A stretch of 33,285 nt of DNA from Acidobacteriaceae bacterium. Lineage in GTDB: Bacteria > Acidobacteriota > Terriglobia > Terriglobales > Acidobacteriaceae. This document shows positions 342 to 24,199 of this stretch, piece by piece (the stretch's first letter is position 1; every line of letters begins with the position of its first letter). The DNA lies in the NCBI GenBank assembly GCA_003151335.1, contig PLXE01000064.1, positions 1 through 33,285 of the forward strand, written 5' to 3'. The notes under the pieces are model-generated. The model had not been told where the DNA came from. It did not search any database and saw only the letters and a list, made by a program, of their open reading frames with translations. Both the position numbers and the translations under genes were made by a program.

Positions 342-416
342 TGGAGCGGGGTACGGGGATCGAACCCGTGACATCGAGCTTGGGAAGCTCGCGTTCTACC
401 GCTGAACTAACCCCGC
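342..416 (-). tRNA. tRNA-Gly (anticodon CCC)
   Basis: On the minus strand the sequence folds as a standard cloverleaf. The acceptor stem GCGGGGT (346-352 and 410-416) closes perfectly, the D-arm holds AGCGGTAGA, and the anticodon stem CGAGC/GCTCG encloses loop TTCCCAA, giving anticodon CCC. The T-arm has GGTTCGATCC. The discriminator base is followed by an encoded CCA at 342-344. Decodes GGG glycine codons. Confidence 0.95.
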
Positions 417-497: not shown

Positions 498-1847
498 CTA
501 CTTCGTCGCAATCATAAGATTGACGGGACCCGGTATGCGGACCCTCTTGCTCCCGGCAAAGCCTGCGGCCTTCAACCACTCTTCGTATTCCGGTTCGCTA
601 TAGCTTGCTCCCGCCCGAGTGCCCACCAGCATGTTCAGCGCGAACAGCGTGGCGAAGCGCGGAGAAGTCTTGTCCGCATCGAGGATAAAGTCGGCAATAA
701 CGAGGCGCCCTTGCGGCGCAAGAGCTGCGTAGGCACGAGCCAGTAGCTGCCGATTTTCTTCTGGCGAGAACATGTGGCAGATCGCCGACAGCAGAATCAA
801 GTCGTAACTTGCCGGCGCAAGTGGAACGGTCAACATGTCGCCGGCGCGAGTGCTGATGCGGTCGCTCAGTCCGGCCTGGCGAATATGTTCCTGTGTAATG
901 GGCAACACTTCGGGCAGATCGACGATCTCGGAATGTAGCGCTGAAGCGGCTTTGACAAACGCAATGGAGTAGGCGCCCGAACCTCCGCCGAGATCGAGCA
1001 TGCGCTTCTCGCCGTCCAACTCGACAGCCTGCGCCACGGCGCGCGCCCGGCCGCGAGCGGTGTGGTCCATGGCGGCGATGAACGAAGTGACCCATCCATT
1101 GTCGCGACCTGACTCAACCGCAGTGCCGGTGCGTACGGCTTCCGTAAGCTTGGACCAGCGCTGCCACATGTTTGCCATGTGCAATTGCGCGGTGCGAGCG
1201 CTGTCGGGAGAACCCTCCACCAGGAAGCGCGCCGCCACCGGCGTATTCGTATACATCCCGTCATGCTTTTCCAGCAGCTTGAGGCTTACCAGGGCGTTCA
1301 GCAGCATCTCGGTGGCGCGCACCGCAGCCTGAATTCTGGCTGCGATCTGTTGCGCGTTGCCGCCCTTGCCGACGGCGGTAAATACGTCAAGTTCCAGGGC
1401 CGTCAGAAGGGCGCGGCTGGGCATAAAGCTGCGGATCATGTCGTGGATGTCATCCGGCAGCACACCGGCGGCGTCCTTGCCCTTCAGCATGGCGAGATAC
1501 CTGTTGCGATGGTCGAGAATCTCGGTCTTCATGTCAGCGTCGGGGTTTCGCTCCAGGCGAGCGACCTTTCGTCCCGCCTTCAGGTGCGACGATACGATCT
1601 CCGGCACGTCGTTCGGGGCCAGCTTCGCATACCAGGTGCCCTCGGGATAAACGATCATCACCGGTCCGCTGTCACAAATTCCCAGACAGCCGGAACTGGA
1701 AACTTGGACATCGTCGCTCAGTCCCTGGGTGCCGAGCTCGCGGTGCAAGGCGTTGAGAACGCCGAAGGAGCCCGCCGCCGAGCAGCAGGGAACTCCTTCA
1801 GCTTTTTCCTGTGTGCAGACGAAAATATGATGACGAAACGGTTCCAC
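498..1847 (-). CDS. Thioredoxin-like [2Fe-2S] ferredoxin fused to SAM-dependent methyltransferase
   Basis: 449 aa, GTG start at 1847 preceded by a GGAGGT ribosome binding site. Residues 1-105 are a thioredoxin-fold [2Fe-2S] ferredoxin with the expected four cysteines: C11, C22, C54 and C58 (the last two in GCLGIC). Residues about 110-449 are a class I methyltransferase of the O-methyltransferase/BchU type: a winged-helix dimerisation domain (about 125-200, SRALLTALELDVF), then the SAM-binding loop MLDLGGGSG at 283-291, an acidic residue after strand 2 (EIVDLPEV) and a GDML motif. The substrate is unknown. The two-domain arrangement suggests a redox-dependent or redox-gated methyl transfer; that is inference. 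The gene stands alone, with no cofactor-biosynthesis genes beside it. I recall similar fusions in other Acidobacteria, annotated only as methyltransferases. Confidence 0.85.
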   Translation of the reverse strand: MEPFRHHIFVCTQEKAEGVPCCSAAGSFGVLNALHRELGTQGLSDDVQVSSSGCLGICDSGPVMIVYPEGTWYAKLAPNDVPEIVSSHLKAGRKVARLERNPDADMKTEILDHRNRYLAMLKGKDAAGVLPDDIHDMIRSFMPSRALLTALELDVFTAVGKGGNAQQIAARIQAAVRATEMLLNALVSLKLLEKHDGMYTNTPVAARFLVEGSPDSARTAQLHMANMWQRWSKLTEAVRTGTAVESGRDNGWVTSFIAAMDHTARGRARAVAQAVELDGEKRMLDLGGGSGAYSIAFVKAASALHSEIVDLPEVLPITQEHIRQAGLSDRISTRAGDMLTVPLAPASYDLILLSAICHMFSPEENRQLLARAYAALAPQGRLVIADFILDADKTSPRFATLFALNMLVGTRAGASYSEPEYEEWLKAAGFAGSKRVRIPGPVNLMIATK

Positions 1848-2063: not shown

Positions 2064-2091
2064 TTGACATGCCCCCGATGTGCACTATGAT
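2064..2091 (+). promoter_or_regulatory. Promoter of the MerR-type regulator
   Basis: TTGACA (2064-2069) and TATGAT (2086-2091) with 16-base spacing, the strongest sigma-70-type promoter in the window. It lies about 43 bases before the start codon at 2134. MerR-family promoters usually have an extended 19-20-base spacer when MerR activates them; this one does not. Confidence 0.75.
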
Positions 2092-2133
2092 GTTTTAAAC
2101 ATTTATTGTGGGATTTGTTTTGGGTGAATCGCG

Positions 2134-2604
2134 ATGCAGCAGACGTTCACATCCAAAGAAGTGGTGGCCCTGACGGGCATCAGCCCGCGTCAGCTGCAAT
2201 GGTGGGACGAACGTCATCTCGTGGTTCCGGCCCGCGAGGGGCATAAACGCGTCTATGGGATGGACGATCTGGCCGAAGTGGCCGTGATTTGCGATCTGCG
2301 CCAACGCGGTTTCTCCCTGCAGAAGATTCGCCGGGTCATCCGCTTCCTGCAGAAGGAGCTGGGCAAGCGCCTGGTGGAGACGGTCTCCGCCGCCTCCGAA
2401 TACCATCTGCTGACCGACGGCCGGCATATTTACCTGGAAGATTCAGCCCGCGCGGTGGTTGACCTGCTAAAAAACGCCCGCCAGCCGATGTTATCGGTGT
2501 GCCTGAGCGACACCATCCAGCGGGTCCGCGCCGAGGTGCGCGGAGCGAGAAAGCGCAGCGCTTCCGTTCGTCATCCAACTGTAAGGCGAAGTCGGGCTTC
2601 TTGA
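2134..2604 (+). CDS. MerR-family transcriptional regulator
   Basis: 156 aa. Residues 5-75 form a winged helix-turn-helix of the MerR type: the HTH begins FTSKEVVALTGISPRQLQWW, followed by the wing GHKRVYGMDDL and the helix RQRGFSLQKIRRVIRFL. The C-terminal part (about 85-156) is short and basic, with no cysteine cluster or other known effector-binding pocket, so the ligand cannot be named. An in-frame TGA at 2125-2127 fixes ATG 2134 as the first usable start; the ribosome binding site is weak. It is followed 19 bases later by a small zinc-ribbon-like gene, probably in the same transcript. MerR proteins bind as dimers to spacer DNA in promoters; autoregulation from 2064-2091 is plausible but not shown. 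Confidence 0.85.
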   Translation: MQQTFTSKEVVALTGISPRQLQWWDERHLVVPAREGHKRVYGMDDLAEVAVICDLRQRGFSLQKIRRVIRFLQKELGKRLVETVSAASEYHLLTDGRHIYLEDSARAVVDLLKNARQPMLSVCLSDTIQRVRAEVRGARKRSASVRHPTVRRSRAS

Positions 2605-3351: not shown

Positions 3352-3807
3352 CTAGCGCCGGTACACGTTGGGCTCGGGGCCCTTCTCCAGGGTCTCGCGG
3401 TTCCAGATGAGCCCTTCCCGGCTGTAGTTCGCCATCTCAAAGTCCTGGGTCAACTCCAGTGCGTCGGTGGGGCAGGCGTCTTCGCAAAGTCCGCAAAACA
3501 TGCAGCGGCTCAGGTCGTAGGTGAAGTCCGTCAGCTCCTTGCGCCGGGTGTGAGGATTGCGTTCGCTGTTCACCACGATGAGGTGCTCAGGACACGCCAG
3601 GGCGCAGAGATCGCAGGAGATGCACAGGGTCTCGTTGGTATCGGGATTGTTGTTGAGGCGAGGCGCGCCGCGGAAACGCTCCGCGACTTCAGGCCGCTGC
3701 AGCGGATACTGTTCGGTGATGAGTTCCTTCGGGTCCTGATTGCGGAAGGTGACTCTCAGTCCCTTGATCAAATCCACGAACATCAGCTTGCGTAAAACCG
3801 TGTTCAT
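3352..3807 (-). CDS. nuoI: NuoI-type 2x[4Fe-4S] ferredoxin (NADH-quinone oxidoreductase subunit I-like)
   Basis: 151 aa from ATG 3807. The frame stays open to 3915, but the upstream part is non-conserved and overlaps a dispersed repeat, and a GAGG site directly precedes ATG 3807. Two classical [4Fe-4S] motifs are present, CISCDLCALACP and CMFCGLCEDACP, with the NuoI-type sequence between them (HTRRKELTDFTYDLSRC). The N-terminal helix with VTFRNQDPKELITEQYP fits complex I subunit I, which passes electrons through clusters N6a and N6b at the membrane arm junction. Length is a little short for NuoI. No other nuo gene is nearby, so it is an orphan copy, either a second NuoI or an electron-transfer subunit of another membrane enzyme. 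Confidence 0.75.
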   Translation of the reverse strand: MNTVLRKLMFVDLIKGLRVTFRNQDPKELITEQYPLQRPEVAERFRGAPRLNNNPDTNETLCISCDLCALACPEHLIVVNSERNPHTRRKELTDFTYDLSRCMFCGLCEDACPTDALELTQDFEMANYSREGLIWNRETLEKGPEPNVYRR

Positions 3808-3861
3808 CCTCAACCCTCGATGTGAGTGAAGTTTAGCATAGCAAGCTTCGCGCGATCTCTT

Positions 3862-3960
3862 TTCCCGCCTGTCCTCCTGAGCGACGAGGAGTCGAAGGAC
3901 CCCTATACCGCCCACTCAGTTTCGCCTGGCACGTTTTTCGACAGAGCGAAATCGAAGGGC
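3862..3960. repeat. Single copy of the CCTGAGCG...GTCGAAGGACCCC dispersed element
   Basis: A CCTGAGCGACGAGGAGTCGA string followed by AGGACCCCTAT (about 3876-3907) matches the arm of the inverted pair at 8910-9051. A poorer opposite arm may lie near 3931-3955. It lies between the divergent NuoI-like gene and the secretin. Confidence 0.5.
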
Positions 3961-19310: not shown

Positions 19311-21722
19311 ATGCAACTACATGTAGCACCGGGCATCAGCGGCATGGTAGTGTCTCCTAACGGGACGGTCGGGAGCACCTATTTGGCGGCCACAACACGT
19401 CCGTTGCTAATCCGCAAACAGATACGTGTGCGCGGCATCGTGCAGGGTGTTGGGTTCCGTCCATTCGTTTACAACCTCGCACGCGAACTCAGGCTAACCG
19501 GATGCGTCTTCAATTCATCGGCAGGTGTGACGGTCGAGATTGAGGGCGCCGACGAGGGCATCCAGAAATTCCTGGACGCATTGCGGCACCGGCCGCCGCC
19601 TCTGGCGTTGATCAAAGAAGTCAGCGTGGCCGAGCTCGATCCGCTTGGCGAAAGCGACTTCGTAATACGGCAAAGCCACGCGGAAGCGGGCGAGTTTGTG
19701 CTGGTATCGCCCGATGTGGCGACCTGCGACGAGTGCTGGCGCGACTTTGGCGACCCCAAGAACCGCCGCTTTGGATATCCGTTTACTAACTGCACCAATT
19801 GCGGACCGCGCTACACCATTATTCAGGACATTCCTTATGATCGCCCGATGACCACCATGTCATCGTTTCGCATGTGCGCGCTTTGCCAGGCGGAGTACGA
19901 AGACCCAACCAATCGCCGCTTTCATGCGCAGCCGACTGCCTGTCCGGTGTGCGGCCCAGCTTTGGCGATCGCGGGATCCGGATCGGTTTTCCCGCAAGAT
20001 GCGGACTACAACCCTGCTGGATCTGCGGCGATCATCGGAAGGGCGCGCGAGCTGCTGCGCGAAGGCAGGATCGTAGCGGTCAAAGGGCTGGGCGGTTTCC
20101 TGCTGGCCTGCGATGCGCAGAACGATGCCAGTGTGAAGCTGTTACGCGCTCGCAAACGCCGCAGTGACAAGCCTTTCGCCTTGATGGCGCGCGATCTTGC
20201 CGCCGTCGAAAGCTTCTGCGTTGTTTCCGGCGCGGAGCGCGCCGCTCTACTGAGTCCGCGACGCCCCATTGTGGTGCTGCGCCGCCGACCGGACGCGACG
20301 ATCTCCCCGGCCGTCGCTCCCAGCAATAACACCATTGGCGTCATGCTGCCGTACACGCCGCTCCATTACCTGCTGTTCAGCGACTCGCCCGACGACCCGC
20401 CGCAGTTTACGGCGTTGGTGATGACCAGCGGCAACCTCAGCGAGGAGCCCATTGTCATTTCAAATCAAGAGGCGTGGGAGCGTTTGCAGCCGGTGGCCGA
20501 TTGGTTTGTATTTCACAACCGCGACATCTACATGCGCACGGATGATTCCGTGGTGCGCACGCTGGAAGGACGTGAGCGTGTGCTGCGGCGTTCCCGTGGA
20601 TATGTGCCGCATCCCGTGGACCTTGGTGTCCCGCTGGGCGAGATCCTGGCGTGCGGCGCCGAGCTGAAGAATACGTTTTGCCTGACCAAGGGCACCTACG
20701 CAATCCTGAGTCAACACATTGGCGATCTGGAGAATTACGAGACGCTGGTGTTCTTCGAGGAAACGCTGGCCAACCTGAAGAAGCTCTTCCGGGTTGAACC
20801 TCTCGCCGTGGCGTATGACCTGCATCCCAACTATATGAGCTCGCGTTTTGCCCTCAGATTACCGATTGCGCAAAAGGTCGGCGTTCAGCACCATCATGCG
20901 CACGTCGCCAGTTGCATGGCGGAAAATCACCTCTGCGGCAAGGTGATCGGCGTAGCCTTCGACGGCACCGGTTATGGCACGGATGGAAAGATCTGGGGCG
21001 GGGAGTTTCTGGTGGCCGACTTCGCGGGATTCGAGCGGCGGGCGCATCTGCGTTATGTCCCGCTCGTGGGCGGCGATGCAGCGGTGCGGCAGCCTTGGCG
21101 CATGGCACTTAGCTATCTGCGCGACACCTTCGGTGCGCGATCCCTGCCGCCGGGCATCCGCTTTCTCGGCAGCATTCCGGAAAAGCAAGTCGGCCTGGTG
21201 GACGCCATGCTGTTGCGCGGTATCAACAGCGTTGAGACGTCTTCCTGCGGCCGCTTGTTCGATGCCGTGGCCTCCCTCATCGACCTACGGCAGGAGGTCA
21301 ACTTTGAGGGGCAAGCGGCGATCGAATTGGAAATGATCGCGCAAGCTGGGGTCGAACAGCGGTATCCTTTCCTTGTGAGTGATGGCGAGCCGGCGCAGGT
21401 GGACATGCGGCCCATGATCGAGAACATCGTACAAGACCTTGCGCGGTCGAAGCCGGCTGCATACATCGCCGCGTGTTTTCATAACACCGTCGCCGCTGCG
21501 ATTGTGGAGGTTTGCCGGAGCATCGGCAAGCGTGAGCAACTGAAGCGCGTTTGCCTGAGCGGTGGCACCTTCCAGAACCTGTACCTACTGCGCCGCGTGG
21601 TGGAAGGATTACAACGCGATGGGTTCGAGGTTTACCTGCACAGCTTGGTTCCTCCCAACGATGGAGGAATCGCGCTCGGCCAGGCGGTCATCGCGAACGA
21701 AATGTTGCGAAGAGGGAACTGA
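19311..21722 (+). CDS. hypF: HypF, carbamoyltransferase for [NiFe]-hydrogenase maturation
   Basis: 803 aa from ATG 19311; later in-frame starts are ATG 19344 and TTG 19383 (the latter with GGGAG), so the first 25 residues are uncertain. Domains in order: acylphosphatase-like (about 37-125, VRGIVQGVGFRPFVYNLARE); two zinc fingers of form C-x2-C-x18-C-x2-C (C139, C142, C161, C164 and C189, C192, C211, C214); a YrdC-like domain (about 240-420); and a Kae1/TobZ-like domain (about 440-800, with HHHAHVASCMAEN and FDGTGYGTDG). HypF uses carbamoyl phosphate and ATP to place a carbamoyl group on the C-terminal cysteine of HypE, the source of the active-site cyanides. All catalytic motifs look intact. 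It ends one base before hypC. Confidence 0.95.
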   Translation: MQLHVAPGISGMVVSPNGTVGSTYLAATTRPLLIRKQIRVRGIVQGVGFRPFVYNLARELRLTGCVFNSSAGVTVEIEGADEGIQKFLDALRHRPPPLALIKEVSVAELDPLGESDFVIRQSHAEAGEFVLVSPDVATCDECWRDFGDPKNRRFGYPFTNCTNCGPRYTIIQDIPYDRPMTTMSSFRMCALCQAEYEDPTNRRFHAQPTACPVCGPALAIAGSGSVFPQDADYNPAGSAAIIGRARELLREGRIVAVKGLGGFLLACDAQNDASVKLLRARKRRSDKPFALMARDLAAVESFCVVSGAERAALLSPRRPIVVLRRRPDATISPAVAPSNNTIGVMLPYTPLHYLLFSDSPDDPPQFTALVMTSGNLSEEPIVISNQEAWERLQPVADWFVFHNRDIYMRTDDSVVRTLEGRERVLRRSRGYVPHPVDLGVPLGEILACGAELKNTFCLTKGTYAILSQHIGDLENYETLVFFEETLANLKKLFRVEPLAVAYDLHPNYMSSRFALRLPIAQKVGVQHHHAHVASCMAENHLCGKVIGVAFDGTGYGTDGKIWGGEFLVADFAGFERRAHLRYVPLVGGDAAVRQPWRMALSYLRDTFGARSLPPGIRFLGSIPEKQVGLVDAMLLRGINSVETSSCGRLFDAVASLIDLRQEVNFEGQAAIELEMIAQAGVEQRYPFLVSDGEPAQVDMRPMIENIVQDLARSKPAAYIAACFHNTVAAAIVEVCRSIGKREQLKRVCLSGGTFQNLYLLRRVVEGLQRDGFEVYLHSLVPPNDGGIALGQAVIANEMLRRGN

Positions 21723-21723
21723 C

Positions 21724-22005
21724 ATGTGTTTGGCGATTCCCGGCAAGGTGGTCGAGGCATTCGACCAGCAGGGCATGCGTATGGCCAAGGTCCAGTTCGG
21801 CGGCGTCGTGCGCGAGGCCTGCCTGGAGTACCTGCCGGAGACCCAGGTCGGCGACTATGTCCTGGTTCATGTGGGTTTCGCCATCAGCAAGGTTGATGAG
21901 GAAGAGGCGCAGCGCACCTACCAACTGCTCGAAGAATTGGACCAACTGACGGAACTCAATGCGCCGCTCGCGGATGAGATCGACGATGGGAGACCCAAGC
22001 AATGA
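21724..22005 (+). CDS. hypC: HypC, hydrogenase maturation chaperone
   Basis: 93 aa. The start is ATG 21724, giving the diagnostic N-terminus MCLAIPGKV in which C2 binds iron after removal of Met; GAGGGA lies upstream. The rest is the small beta-barrel ([40 protein letters not shown]) with an acidic C-terminal helix. HypC partners with HypD to assemble Fe(CN)2CO and delivers it to the large subunit precursor. The stop codon overlaps the hypD start as ATGA. Confidence 0.95.
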
Positions 22006-23144
22006 AGTACCTGGATGAATATCGTGATGGACGGCTGGCCGGCAAGATCGTCGAGGAAATTCACCGTATCCAGACCAAGCCGTGGGTGATTATGGAAGTC
22101 TGCGGCGGGCAGACGCATTCCATCGTCAAGCATGGAATCGACTACCTGCTGCCGCGGGAGATTGAGTTGGTACACGGCCCCGGCTGCCCGGTTTGCGTGA
22201 CGCCCCTGGAGATGATTGACAAAGCGCACGCCATTGCCCGGCGCCCTGACGTGATCTTCTGCTCGTTCGGCGACATGCTGCGCGTGCCCGGATCGGACGG
22301 CGATCTTTTTACCATCAAGTCGCAAGGCGGCGATGTTCGCGTGGTTTACTCGCCGCTGGATTGCCTGAAGATTGCGCACGCCAATCCCGACAAGCAAGTG
22401 GTCTTCTTCGCCATTGGCTTCGAGACCACTGCGCCCGCCAACGCCATGCTGGTCTGGCGCGCCCAGCAGGAAGGCGTGAAAAACGTCTCCATGCTGGTTT
22501 CCCATGTTCTGGTGCCGCCCGCGATCGCCGCCATCCTGCAATCTCCGCTGAACCGGGTGCAGGGATTTCTAGGGCCGGGGCATGTCTGCGCGGTGATGGG
22601 GTATCGCGAGTACGAACCGCTCAGCGCGCAGTTCAAGGTGCCGATCGTCATCACGGGATTCGAGCCGCTGGACATTCTGCAGGGAATACTGATGACCGTC
22701 CGGCAGCTGGAGAGCGGGCGCGCCGAAGTGGAGAACGAATACTCGCGCGTTTTGGACCGGGAAGGGAACAAGCCGGCGCAGAAGTTGGTGTTCAACGTGT
22801 TTGAAGTCGCCGATCGCAAGTGGCGAGGGGTGGGGACGATTCCGAAGAGCGGTTACAAGTTACGCTGGGAGTTCCGCGATCACGATGCAGAAAAGCTGTT
22901 CGACGTGAAGGAGATCGATACGCTGGAGTCCGAGGTTTGCATCAGCGGTCAAATCCTGAGCGGCATCAAGAAGCCGCACGATTGCCCGGCCTTTGGCACC
23001 GAGTGCAACCCGCAACACCCGCTGGGCGCGACCATGGTCTCAGCCGAAGGCGCCTGCGCCGCCTATTATGCCTATGGCAGGCACCTGAAGAGAGATAAAG
23101 ATGATGTTAAGCTGACGGCGATTTCCATGGGTGGGCCGGCATGA
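22002..23144 (+). CDS. hypD: HypD, Fe-S scaffold protein for Fe(CN)2CO assembly
   Basis: 380 aa, normal length. The conserved cysteine motifs are present: [46 protein letters not shown], and the C-terminal set CISGQILSG / [16 protein letters not shown] / [10 protein letters not shown] that holds the [4Fe-4S] cluster. HypD carries the iron centre with HypC while cyanide and CO are added. Coupled by 4-base overlaps with both hypC (22002-22005) and hypE (23141-23144). Confidence 0.96.
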
Positions 23145-24199
23145 CGGTATTCGGTTCCTGTCCACTGCCCATCTTCGAGCACAAGCAGATCATGCTGGGC
23201 CACGGCAGCGGCGGCAAGCTGACGGCTGAGTTGATTGACAAGGTCTTCCGTCCAGCCTTCACCAACCCATTTCTCGACAAGCTTGACGACCAGGCCGTGG
23301 TGCAGGTGAATGGCACGCGGCTGGCATTCACCACGGACTCGTTCGTGGTGACGCCGATTTTTTTCCCCGGTGGAGATATCGGGCGACTGGCAATCAATGG
23401 CACGGTGAATGACCTGGCCATGAGCGGAGCCCGTCCGCTGTATTTGGCCGCAGCGTTCATTCTGGAAGAAGGGCTGGCGGCGGATGACCTGCGCCGCGTG
23501 GTCGAATCCATGCGCGACGCGGCGAACGAAGCCGGTGTGCTGCTGGTGACCGGAGACACCAAGGTAGTCAATCGCGGCAAGGGCGACCAGGTGTTCATCA
23601 CGACGACGGGGCTTGGCGTGATCGACCGGCCAGTGGAGATTTCGGCCGATCGCGCGCGTCCGGGCGACAAGATCATCCTCAGCGGATTCATCGGCGATCA
23701 CGGCATGGCGGTCATGTCGCAACGGGAGAACCTGGAGTTCGAAGGCGCCATTCAAAGCGACTGCGCGCCACTGCATGGCCTGGTTAATGTAATGCTTGAA
23801 GTGACGGGTAGGGAAGGACTCCCGACCATCCACTGCCTGCGCGATCCAACCCGCGGCGGCGTAGCTACCACCTTGAATGAAATTGCGGGCCAGTCGCAGG
23901 TCGGAATGCTGCTGCAAGAGCGTAATATTCCAGTCCGCGAAACCGTCCAAGGCGCCTGCGAAATATTGGGACTTGATCCTCTTTATGTGGCCAATGAGGG
24001 TAAGCTGGTTGCGATCGTTGCCGCTGCGTCAGCGGATGAAATTGTCCAGCGCATGCGCCAGCACCCGCTGGGCGGCGAAGCTGCGGTGATCGGAGAGGTG
24101 GTTGCCGATCATGCCGGCATGGTGCTGATGAAGACCGAGATCGGCGGCACGCGCGTCCTGGACGTCATGTTCGGCGAGCAGCTCCCACGAATTTGTTAG
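23141..24199 (+). CDS. hypE: HypE, thiocarbamate dehydratase
   Basis: 352 aa. Begins with the PurM-like ATP-binding fold ([37 protein letters not shown]) and ends PRIC, with the C-terminal cysteine that receives the carbamoyl group from HypF. Also visible are [19 protein letters not shown] and the [15 protein letters not shown] motif. HypE dehydrates the thiocarboxamide to thiocyanate and passes cyanide to HypC-HypD. Last gene of the coupled hypFCDE block; 140 bases follow before the CBS gene. Confidence 0.96.

Follow-up and report, generated by a model that had tools for sequence, protein, structure and literature searches.

What does a ferredoxin cluster do at the N-terminus of a methyltransferase? 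This question is raised by a single reading frame in the window, i.e., the 33,285 nucleotides of acidobacterial DNA from a soil bacterium. The original prediction had described the gene product as a two-domain fusion, and this layout is confirmed: the ferredoxin, dimerisation and catalytic domains all score above their Pfam gathering cut-offs, with 2Fe-2S_thioredx at residues 5-86 (E 4e-6, 27.2 bits versus 24.8), Dimerisation at residues 133-210 (E 1e-16, 60.8 bits versus 25.6) and Methyltransf_2 at residues 247-431 (E 4e-29, 101.8 bits versus 22.3). The enzyme half, residues 133-449, is complete. The plus strand over the frame is interrupted by stops, and the start position is common to all 61 distinct fusion readings (53 ATG, 7 GTG and 1 TTG). 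The coordinates are given in Table 1. We tentatively consider a redox coupling in cis of the cluster to the methyltransferase as the most likely purpose of the fusion, with a probability of about 0.42.

Table 1. Positions, in the window, of the fusion gene, its domains and expected functional residues, and the divergent regulator.
Feature	Position	Strand	Evidence
Ferredoxin-methyltransferase fusion CDS, 449 aa, GTG start at 1847	498..1847	-	ORF, Pfam, NCBIfam, PDB
Thioredoxin-like [2Fe-2S] ferredoxin domain, residues 4-98	1554..1838	-	Pfam, NCBIfam, PDB sequence match, predicted fold
Cys11 codon, expected cluster ligand	1815..1817	-	61/61 fusions; aligns with Aquifex ferredoxin
Cys22 codon, expected cluster ligand	1782..1784	-	61/61 fusions
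Cys54 codon, expected cluster ligand	1686..1688	-	56/61 fusions; other five Ser54 with Cys52
Cys58 codon, expected cluster ligand	1674..1676	-	61/61 fusions
Linker residues 99-131, mainly one helix (104-126)	1455..1553	-	corresponding C-terminal tail in three stand-alone ferredoxins
O-methyltransferase dimerisation domain, residues 133-210	1218..1451	-	PF08100
O-methyltransferase catalytic domain, residues 247-431	555..1109	-	PF00891; fold match Plim_1147 5i2h
SAM-binding glycine motif GGGSG, residues 287-291	975..989	-	G287-S290 in 61/61 fusions; Gly287 aligns with DsyB Gly173
His358 codon, position of usual general base of family	774..776	-	61/61 fusions
Divergent MerR-family regulator	2134..2604	+	PF13411; conserved neighbour within genus only
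13-bp palindrome ATGTTTTAAACAT (ATGTTT-N-AAACAT), probable MerR operator	2090..2102		arms invariant in 6/6 aligned genomes

How widespread is the fusion? Genome-by-genome searches covered the family of the window and three phyla, Acidobacteriota, Gemmatimonadota and Desulfobacterota. In the family, 58 of 398 genomes match at E 1e-60. The full-length fusion occupies 53 places in 52 genomes; G265 and G405 have the enzyme half only, and pieces are present in G692, G648, G566 and G528. The Acidobacteriota sample comprises 20 matching genomes out of 396, eight with the fusion, that of the window included, and twelve with the enzyme half only. Thus, the acidobacterial homologues mentioned in the original prediction do exist in family and phylum, and the search for the architecture added two genomes of Desulfobacterota and one of Gemmatimonadota, whose proteins are 46-53% identical to that of the window. 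Of 395 genomes from the phylum of the Desulfobacteraceae genome, 14 match and two of these have the fusion; of 249 from the phylum of the Gemmatimonadetes genome, two match, one with the fusion and one (G1184) with the enzyme half only. A sequence collection was also scanned with peptide patterns of the window protein, an approach limited to close relatives. It gave 16 loci, mostly acidobacterial, along with one each from Gemmatimonadetes and Desulfobacteraceae; among the 16, L017 carries no more than the enzyme half, and L016 is truncated at the end of its contig. Plasmid records gave 158 matches to the window protein, all below 60% identity. Among the best 20 of these none reaches query residues before 54, and a Bosea plasmid match that starts at residue 54 overlies an ordinary annotated methyltransferase. 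Two broken fusion copies with internal stops were seen (G581:C49:64366-64926 and G536:C17:94496-95374), both in genomes that also have an intact copy. As the draft genome of the window consists of 121 contigs, an artefact of assembly or of gene calling might be suspected; the same full-length frame in so many independent genomes of the family and in three phyla refutes it.

The ferredoxin half carries the cysteines of its class. The spacing in the window protein, C11-X10-C22-X31-C54-X3-C58, agrees with the signature Cys-X10-12-Cys-X29-34-Cys-X3-Cys described for thioredoxin-like [2Fe-2S] ferredoxins (PMC11138216). The NCBIfam equivalog of stand-alone ferredoxins, fdxn_Clost (NF041612), covers residues 4-98 with E 5.6e-24 and 84.7 bits, which is under its cut-off of 150, and a PDB sequence search matched the Aquifex ferredoxin 1f37 at 5e-19. 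The four cysteines named in the original prediction withstand comparison: Cys11, Cys22 and Cys58 are each present in all 61 distinct fusions and Cys54 in 56. At positions 52 and 54 the fusions have Cys-Cys (45), Ser-Cys (9), Cys-Ser (5) or Thr-Cys (2); in none of the 61 are both cysteines absent. The Ser54 fusions, L021, L023, L024, L025 and L067, with G029 and G245 among their genomes, all possess Cys52, which together with the score sets the fusion domain apart from the NF041612 stand-alone ferredoxins. As four of these five cluster in the tree (93/65), the counts at 52 and 54 follow relatedness and represent few events. Residue 21 is also Cys in the window protein and is Cys in only 18 of the 61 fusions. 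The conservation suggests that the domain binds a low-potential [2Fe-2S] cluster. Elsewhere in the genome of the window the sole other PF01257 match spans nearly the full model (3-145 of 145) and is taken as NuoE.

Structure prediction gave the same picture. AlphaFold2 modelled domain and linker (residues 1-131, 60 sequences) with pLDDT 94.2 and pTM 0.86, and the predicted fold is thioredoxin-like. It superimposes on Azotobacter FeSI 5abr (Z 19.3, rmsd 1.2, 102 residues), on the Aquifex entries 1m2a, 1m2b and 1m2d (Z about 19, rmsd 1.1-1.7, 98-100 residues) and on Aquifex 1f37 (Z 18.3, rmsd 2.4, 106 residues). In Foldseek the Aquifex Cys55Ser variant ranks first. The Aquifex ferredoxin (1f37/1m2a) and FeSI, both PF01257 proteins, thus resemble the fusion domain in fold, four-cysteine pattern and dimer-interface residues; they are free-standing, whereas the fusion domain forms the N-terminal part of a methyltransferase. 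The interface residues, taken from the description of FeSI (PMC8561814), are kept in the fusions: H7 in 61/61, F9 in 56/61, T or S51 in 58/61, G53 in 60/61 and Y67 in 61/61. Most of them (H, F, G, Y) are present in ordinary stand-alone ferredoxins too, and therefore they mark family membership rather than coupling. One could read these kept interface residues, together with the five Ser54 fusions and two stand-alone relatives with Ser at both 52 and 54, as signs that the N-terminal domain only aids dimerisation and that its cluster is vestigial. We consider such a structural relic very improbable: three ligand cysteines are invariant, fusions devoid of Cys54 always have Cys52, and the engineered Aquifex variant 1m2b, with Ser for Cys55, is by its entry title still a [2Fe-2S] ferredoxin.

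Is the second half an active enzyme? Both of its domains lie over their cut-offs, and the SAM motif GGGS (287-290), Asp310 and His358, the latter at the position of the general base, are present in 61 of 61 distinct fusions, which places the protein in O-methyltransferase family 2 and agrees with the intact SAM-binding and dimerisation parts of the original prediction. His358 is presumably the usual general base of the family, with a catalytic role. In all likelihood the fusion is an active methyltransferase, since SAM site and His358 are intact. The AlphaFold2 model of the whole chain (62-sequence alignment) has a mean pLDDT of 90.9 and a pTM of 0.84. Its enzyme part superimposes on Plim_1147 5i2h (Z 33.4, rmsd 2.1, 300 residues of the model), on RedM 8tjj (Z 28.2 over 229 residues) and on 1fpq (279 residues, rmsd 2.5); the remaining structure matches, of 50 listed, align about 200-230 residues or deviate by 13-14 A overall. 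The dimer of O-methyltransferase family 2 is normally intertwined. As the superpositions are mostly partial and the model is a monomer of an intertwined dimer, the placement of the dimerisation domain is not to be trusted. Plim_1147, RedM and PigF (7clf) are like the fusion in dimerisation and catalytic domains, SAM motif and the position of His358; to this the fusion adds the ferredoxin half.

Several known identities were considered and rejected. The label 'BchU/O-methyltransferase-type' of the original prediction holds for the superfamily and fails for BchU, the bacteriochlorophyllide C-20 methyltransferase: the score against TIGR02716 is 70.7 bits, far under the curated cut-off of 276.1. 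Family members other than DsyB also methylate atoms besides oxygen. DsyB (7wdq), among the PDB matches listed the closest solved sequence to the enzyme half (E 7e-40), is described as an MTHB S-methyltransferase that methylates sulphur, and its MTHB-binding residues are given as Tyr97, Gln101, Tyr129, Tyr142, Gln146 and His291 (PMC10989797). The counterparts in the window protein are T219, H223, a gap, I257, D261 and M406, i.e., 0/6 are kept, and a DsyB-like function was rejected on this ground. Of the SAM residues of DsyB (Ser150, Gly173, Asp196, Asp223, Ala224, Ser239) four of six are identical in the window protein (G287, D310, D337, S354), a result that does not separate DsyB from the rest of the superfamily. 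The dimethylsulphide-forming MddM1 and MddM2 are set apart by their description as proteins of 210 and 204 aa from the UbiG/UbiE families (PMC12904073). In none of the 60 PDB chains listed does the best matching segment span both halves. PDB 22ow, of 461 aa, matched only over 138-449; a search with the ferredoxin half did not retrieve it at E up to 10, thus its N-terminal part contains no recognisable ferredoxin.

Have both halves been maintained? The comparison started from 96 distinct readings, 61 fusions, 30 methyltransferase-only and five truncated or broken ones which were dropped (L016, L139, L122, L138, L114); the broken copy L113 was left among the 30, and of the 61 fusions L068 is truncated by the end of its contig and the match of L071 stops at residue 410. 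Over 1830 fusion pairs the mean pairwise identity is 63.6% for the ferredoxin half and 61.4% for the enzyme half, and the two diverge in step (r 0.90 over the same pairs), as expected for parts of one old gene. In nine pairs the dN/dS ranges from 0.03 to 0.29 for the ferredoxin and from 0.07 to 0.18 for the methyltransferase. The ferredoxin value exceeds that of the enzyme in six of nine pairs, about twofold or more when the window is compared with its nearest relatives in the set (L039, L040, L041), and is still well under 1. Both halves are under purifying selection. Loss of the cysteines or decay of the N-terminal domain, named with the original prediction as findings that would speak against it, were looked for in the 61 fusions: the ligands are kept and the domain is no less conserved than the enzyme half.

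A tree of the enzyme half (91 rows) places all 61 fusions within one clade (97/99). This clade also takes in the methyltransferase-only L106, L140, L069 and L028, the broken L113 and a misplaced L002; L002, like L003, is a long-branch remote paralogue from the window's own genome, misplaced in the tree. The simplest reading, which we prefer, would be one gain of the fusion and several losses, with the base of the clade poorly supported. A tblastn search (E 1e-3) at the 19 loci filtered for, G1184 being outside this set, found no ferredoxin remnant upstream of the methyltransferase-only genes and matched only two intact fusions, L087 and L104.

The ferredoxin half also occurs on its own. A search with this half in the 396 phylum genomes at E 1e-25 gave 11 matches, eight fusions and three stand-alone genes of the fusion subfamily, the latter in G032, G262 and G268 (that of G268 is L167:1489-1881 on the minus strand; the other two are L170, with an ORF at 1225-1896 on the plus strand, and L149:1402-1857 on the minus strand). 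All three proteins include the region of the linker helix and terminate at the point at which a fusion would continue into the enzyme. In the proteins from G268 and G262, positions 52 and 54 are both occupied by Ser, which leaves Cys at just three of the usual four ligand positions. In a ferredoxin tree, built from few columns, the three group together (99/88) and are nested among the fusions (94/89); nine of the ten ordinary stand-alone ferredoxins chosen as outgroup were included and form a separate group (100/100). G032 and G262 encode the subfamily ferredoxin and a methyltransferase on different contigs. G268 has no match to the enzyme half at E 1e-10.

Since the halves are found apart in evolution, each can live without the other, and the remark in the original prediction that neither half normally needs the other is borne out by the methyltransferase-only rows inside the fusion clade and by the three stand-alone ferredoxin genomes. 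This counts against a strict mechanistic dependence and is to be weighed against the long-kept fusion. It also opens an alternative in which the ferredoxin half docks to a different redox partner or works alone, the two chemistries being uncoupled and simply co-localised. The separate occurrence of both halves, in G032 and G262 even on different contigs, would suit such a docking or convenience, as would the occurrence of thioredoxin-like ferredoxin domains within subunits of hydrogenases and of complex I. We regard it as a serious rival, though somewhat unlikely. Against it, the fusion persists in three phyla and no ligand position is vacant. Further, the methyltransferases of G032 and G262 (L029, L031) fall outside the fusion clade; therefore these pairs are not simply split halves, and they lend weak support for a joint function.

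Gene neighbours were compared over flanks of mostly 5-8 kb per side, less at contig ends, at 42 loci with a usable match. No neighbour cluster stands beside the fusion or target gene at more than six of the 42 loci, and in Pfam searches of 94 of the 114 listed near neighbours of fusion loci no family has more than four matches. The listing of neighbours proposed with the original prediction thus yielded none common to different lineages at the 42 loci, as seen with a simple longest-ORF caller that kept some false ORFs and hid real genes. An attempt to derive a pathway from operon logic was given up, as none was assignable from the neighbours across these loci. That the neighbours differ across lineages fits a self-contained function.

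Near relatives share one neighbour. The MerR gene of the window, missed by the ORF caller and recovered by tblastn, diverges from the fusion gene and adjoins it in all six genomes of the genus where it is visible, partly also in a seventh; outside the genus it was not found in the loci examined. The palindrome overlaps a promoter-like -10 oriented towards the MerR gene. This points to a probable operator of MerR autoregulation. A control of the fusion gene by MerR is possible and would be a genus-level trait. Other features nearby are noted for completeness. Downstream of the fusion, on the same strand, lies a tRNA-Gly (CCC) at 342-416 (-); an ORF at 188-517 on the strand opposite to the fusion runs over it and is probably spurious. 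At 3352-3915 (-), near the fusion, a 4Fe-4S dicluster ferredoxin (Pfam Fer4 families) is read as NuoI-like. A 76% identical gene is also near the methyltransferase-only gene of G265, in the other orientation; as no other window gene matched there, the link was treated as chance. Three ORFs at 19311-24199 (+) are read from their translations alone as hypF, hypD and hypE of hydrogenase maturation.

A further use of the cluster has to be weighed at this point. It may deliver electrons to the acceptor in place, e.g., reduce a quinone to the hydroquinone, the hydroxyl of which is then methylated. Flavin oxidoreductases, i.e., old-yellow-enzyme-type flavoproteins of PF00724, are encoded beside the fusion of G783 (L104:9040-11058, minus strand) and beside the stand-alone ferredoxin of G268 (L167:410-1492, plus strand), in line with such chemistry; these are, however, only two loci, the recurrent families of neighbours do not include PF00724, and no linked electron donor gene was found. 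The closest solved enzymes, RedM, PigF, DsyB and Plim_1147, have small aromatic or sulphur compounds as substrates or ligands, which would agree with an acceptor of this kind. Ferredoxins of this class are described as carriers of electrons (PMC11138216), yet the clade includes methyltransferase-only members. On balance electron delivery is a serious rival, though it appears unlikely. The protein would then constitute an electron-dependent SAM methyltransferase, a self-contained 'reduce then cap' enzyme made of two otherwise separate domains, whose acceptor may be a quinone or some other oxidised small molecule; this reading is compatible with the evidence and about equally unlikely.

We return to coupling in cis as the preferred reading. 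The protein would be a cytosolic, dimeric, SAM-dependent small-molecule methyltransferase of O-methyltransferase family 2 with a low-potential [2Fe-2S] cluster of its own on the N-terminal domain, the cytosolic site and the dimer being expected from family knowledge. In the dimer with the enzyme half, the cluster would make methylation depend on the redox state of the cell, i.e., on whether it is oxidised or reduced, present or lost. The acceptor is probably phenol-like or another small molecule. What argues for a coupling between the halves is only that the fusion has long been kept: it is found in three phyla, and every fusion has a Cys at 54 or 52. Against it count the methyltransferase-only members inside the fusion clade, which indicate that the enzyme can dispense with the ferredoxin, and the three genomes that have the subfamily ferredoxin without the fused enzyme.

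Both halves are of known kinds; for the joined protein no published description was found. In the full-text literature searched, which holds few subscription journals, none of the results listed described a ferredoxin-methyltransferase architecture by title and start of the abstract. To our knowledge the large O-methyltransferase family does not otherwise carry clusters. The corrin methyltransferase CbiH60 reportedly has an added Fe-S domain, as in the fusion, and is said to differ in methyltransferase fold and in cluster. Plant DGAT3 is described as a [2Fe-2S] transferase with a thioredoxin-like ferredoxin domain, again as in the fusion; it differs in catalysing acyl transfer with an unrelated enzyme (PMC6250708).

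Since the fusion links a ferredoxin cluster with a defined chemistry, the influence of such a cluster on an enzyme can be addressed directly. Should methylation turn out to be gated or powered by the cluster, the fusions would form a branch under redox control within a large family of methyltransferases. Otherwise, natural experiments remain, namely proteins with both halves, proteins with the methyltransferase or the ferredoxin alone, and natural replacements of Cys by Ser at one ligand.
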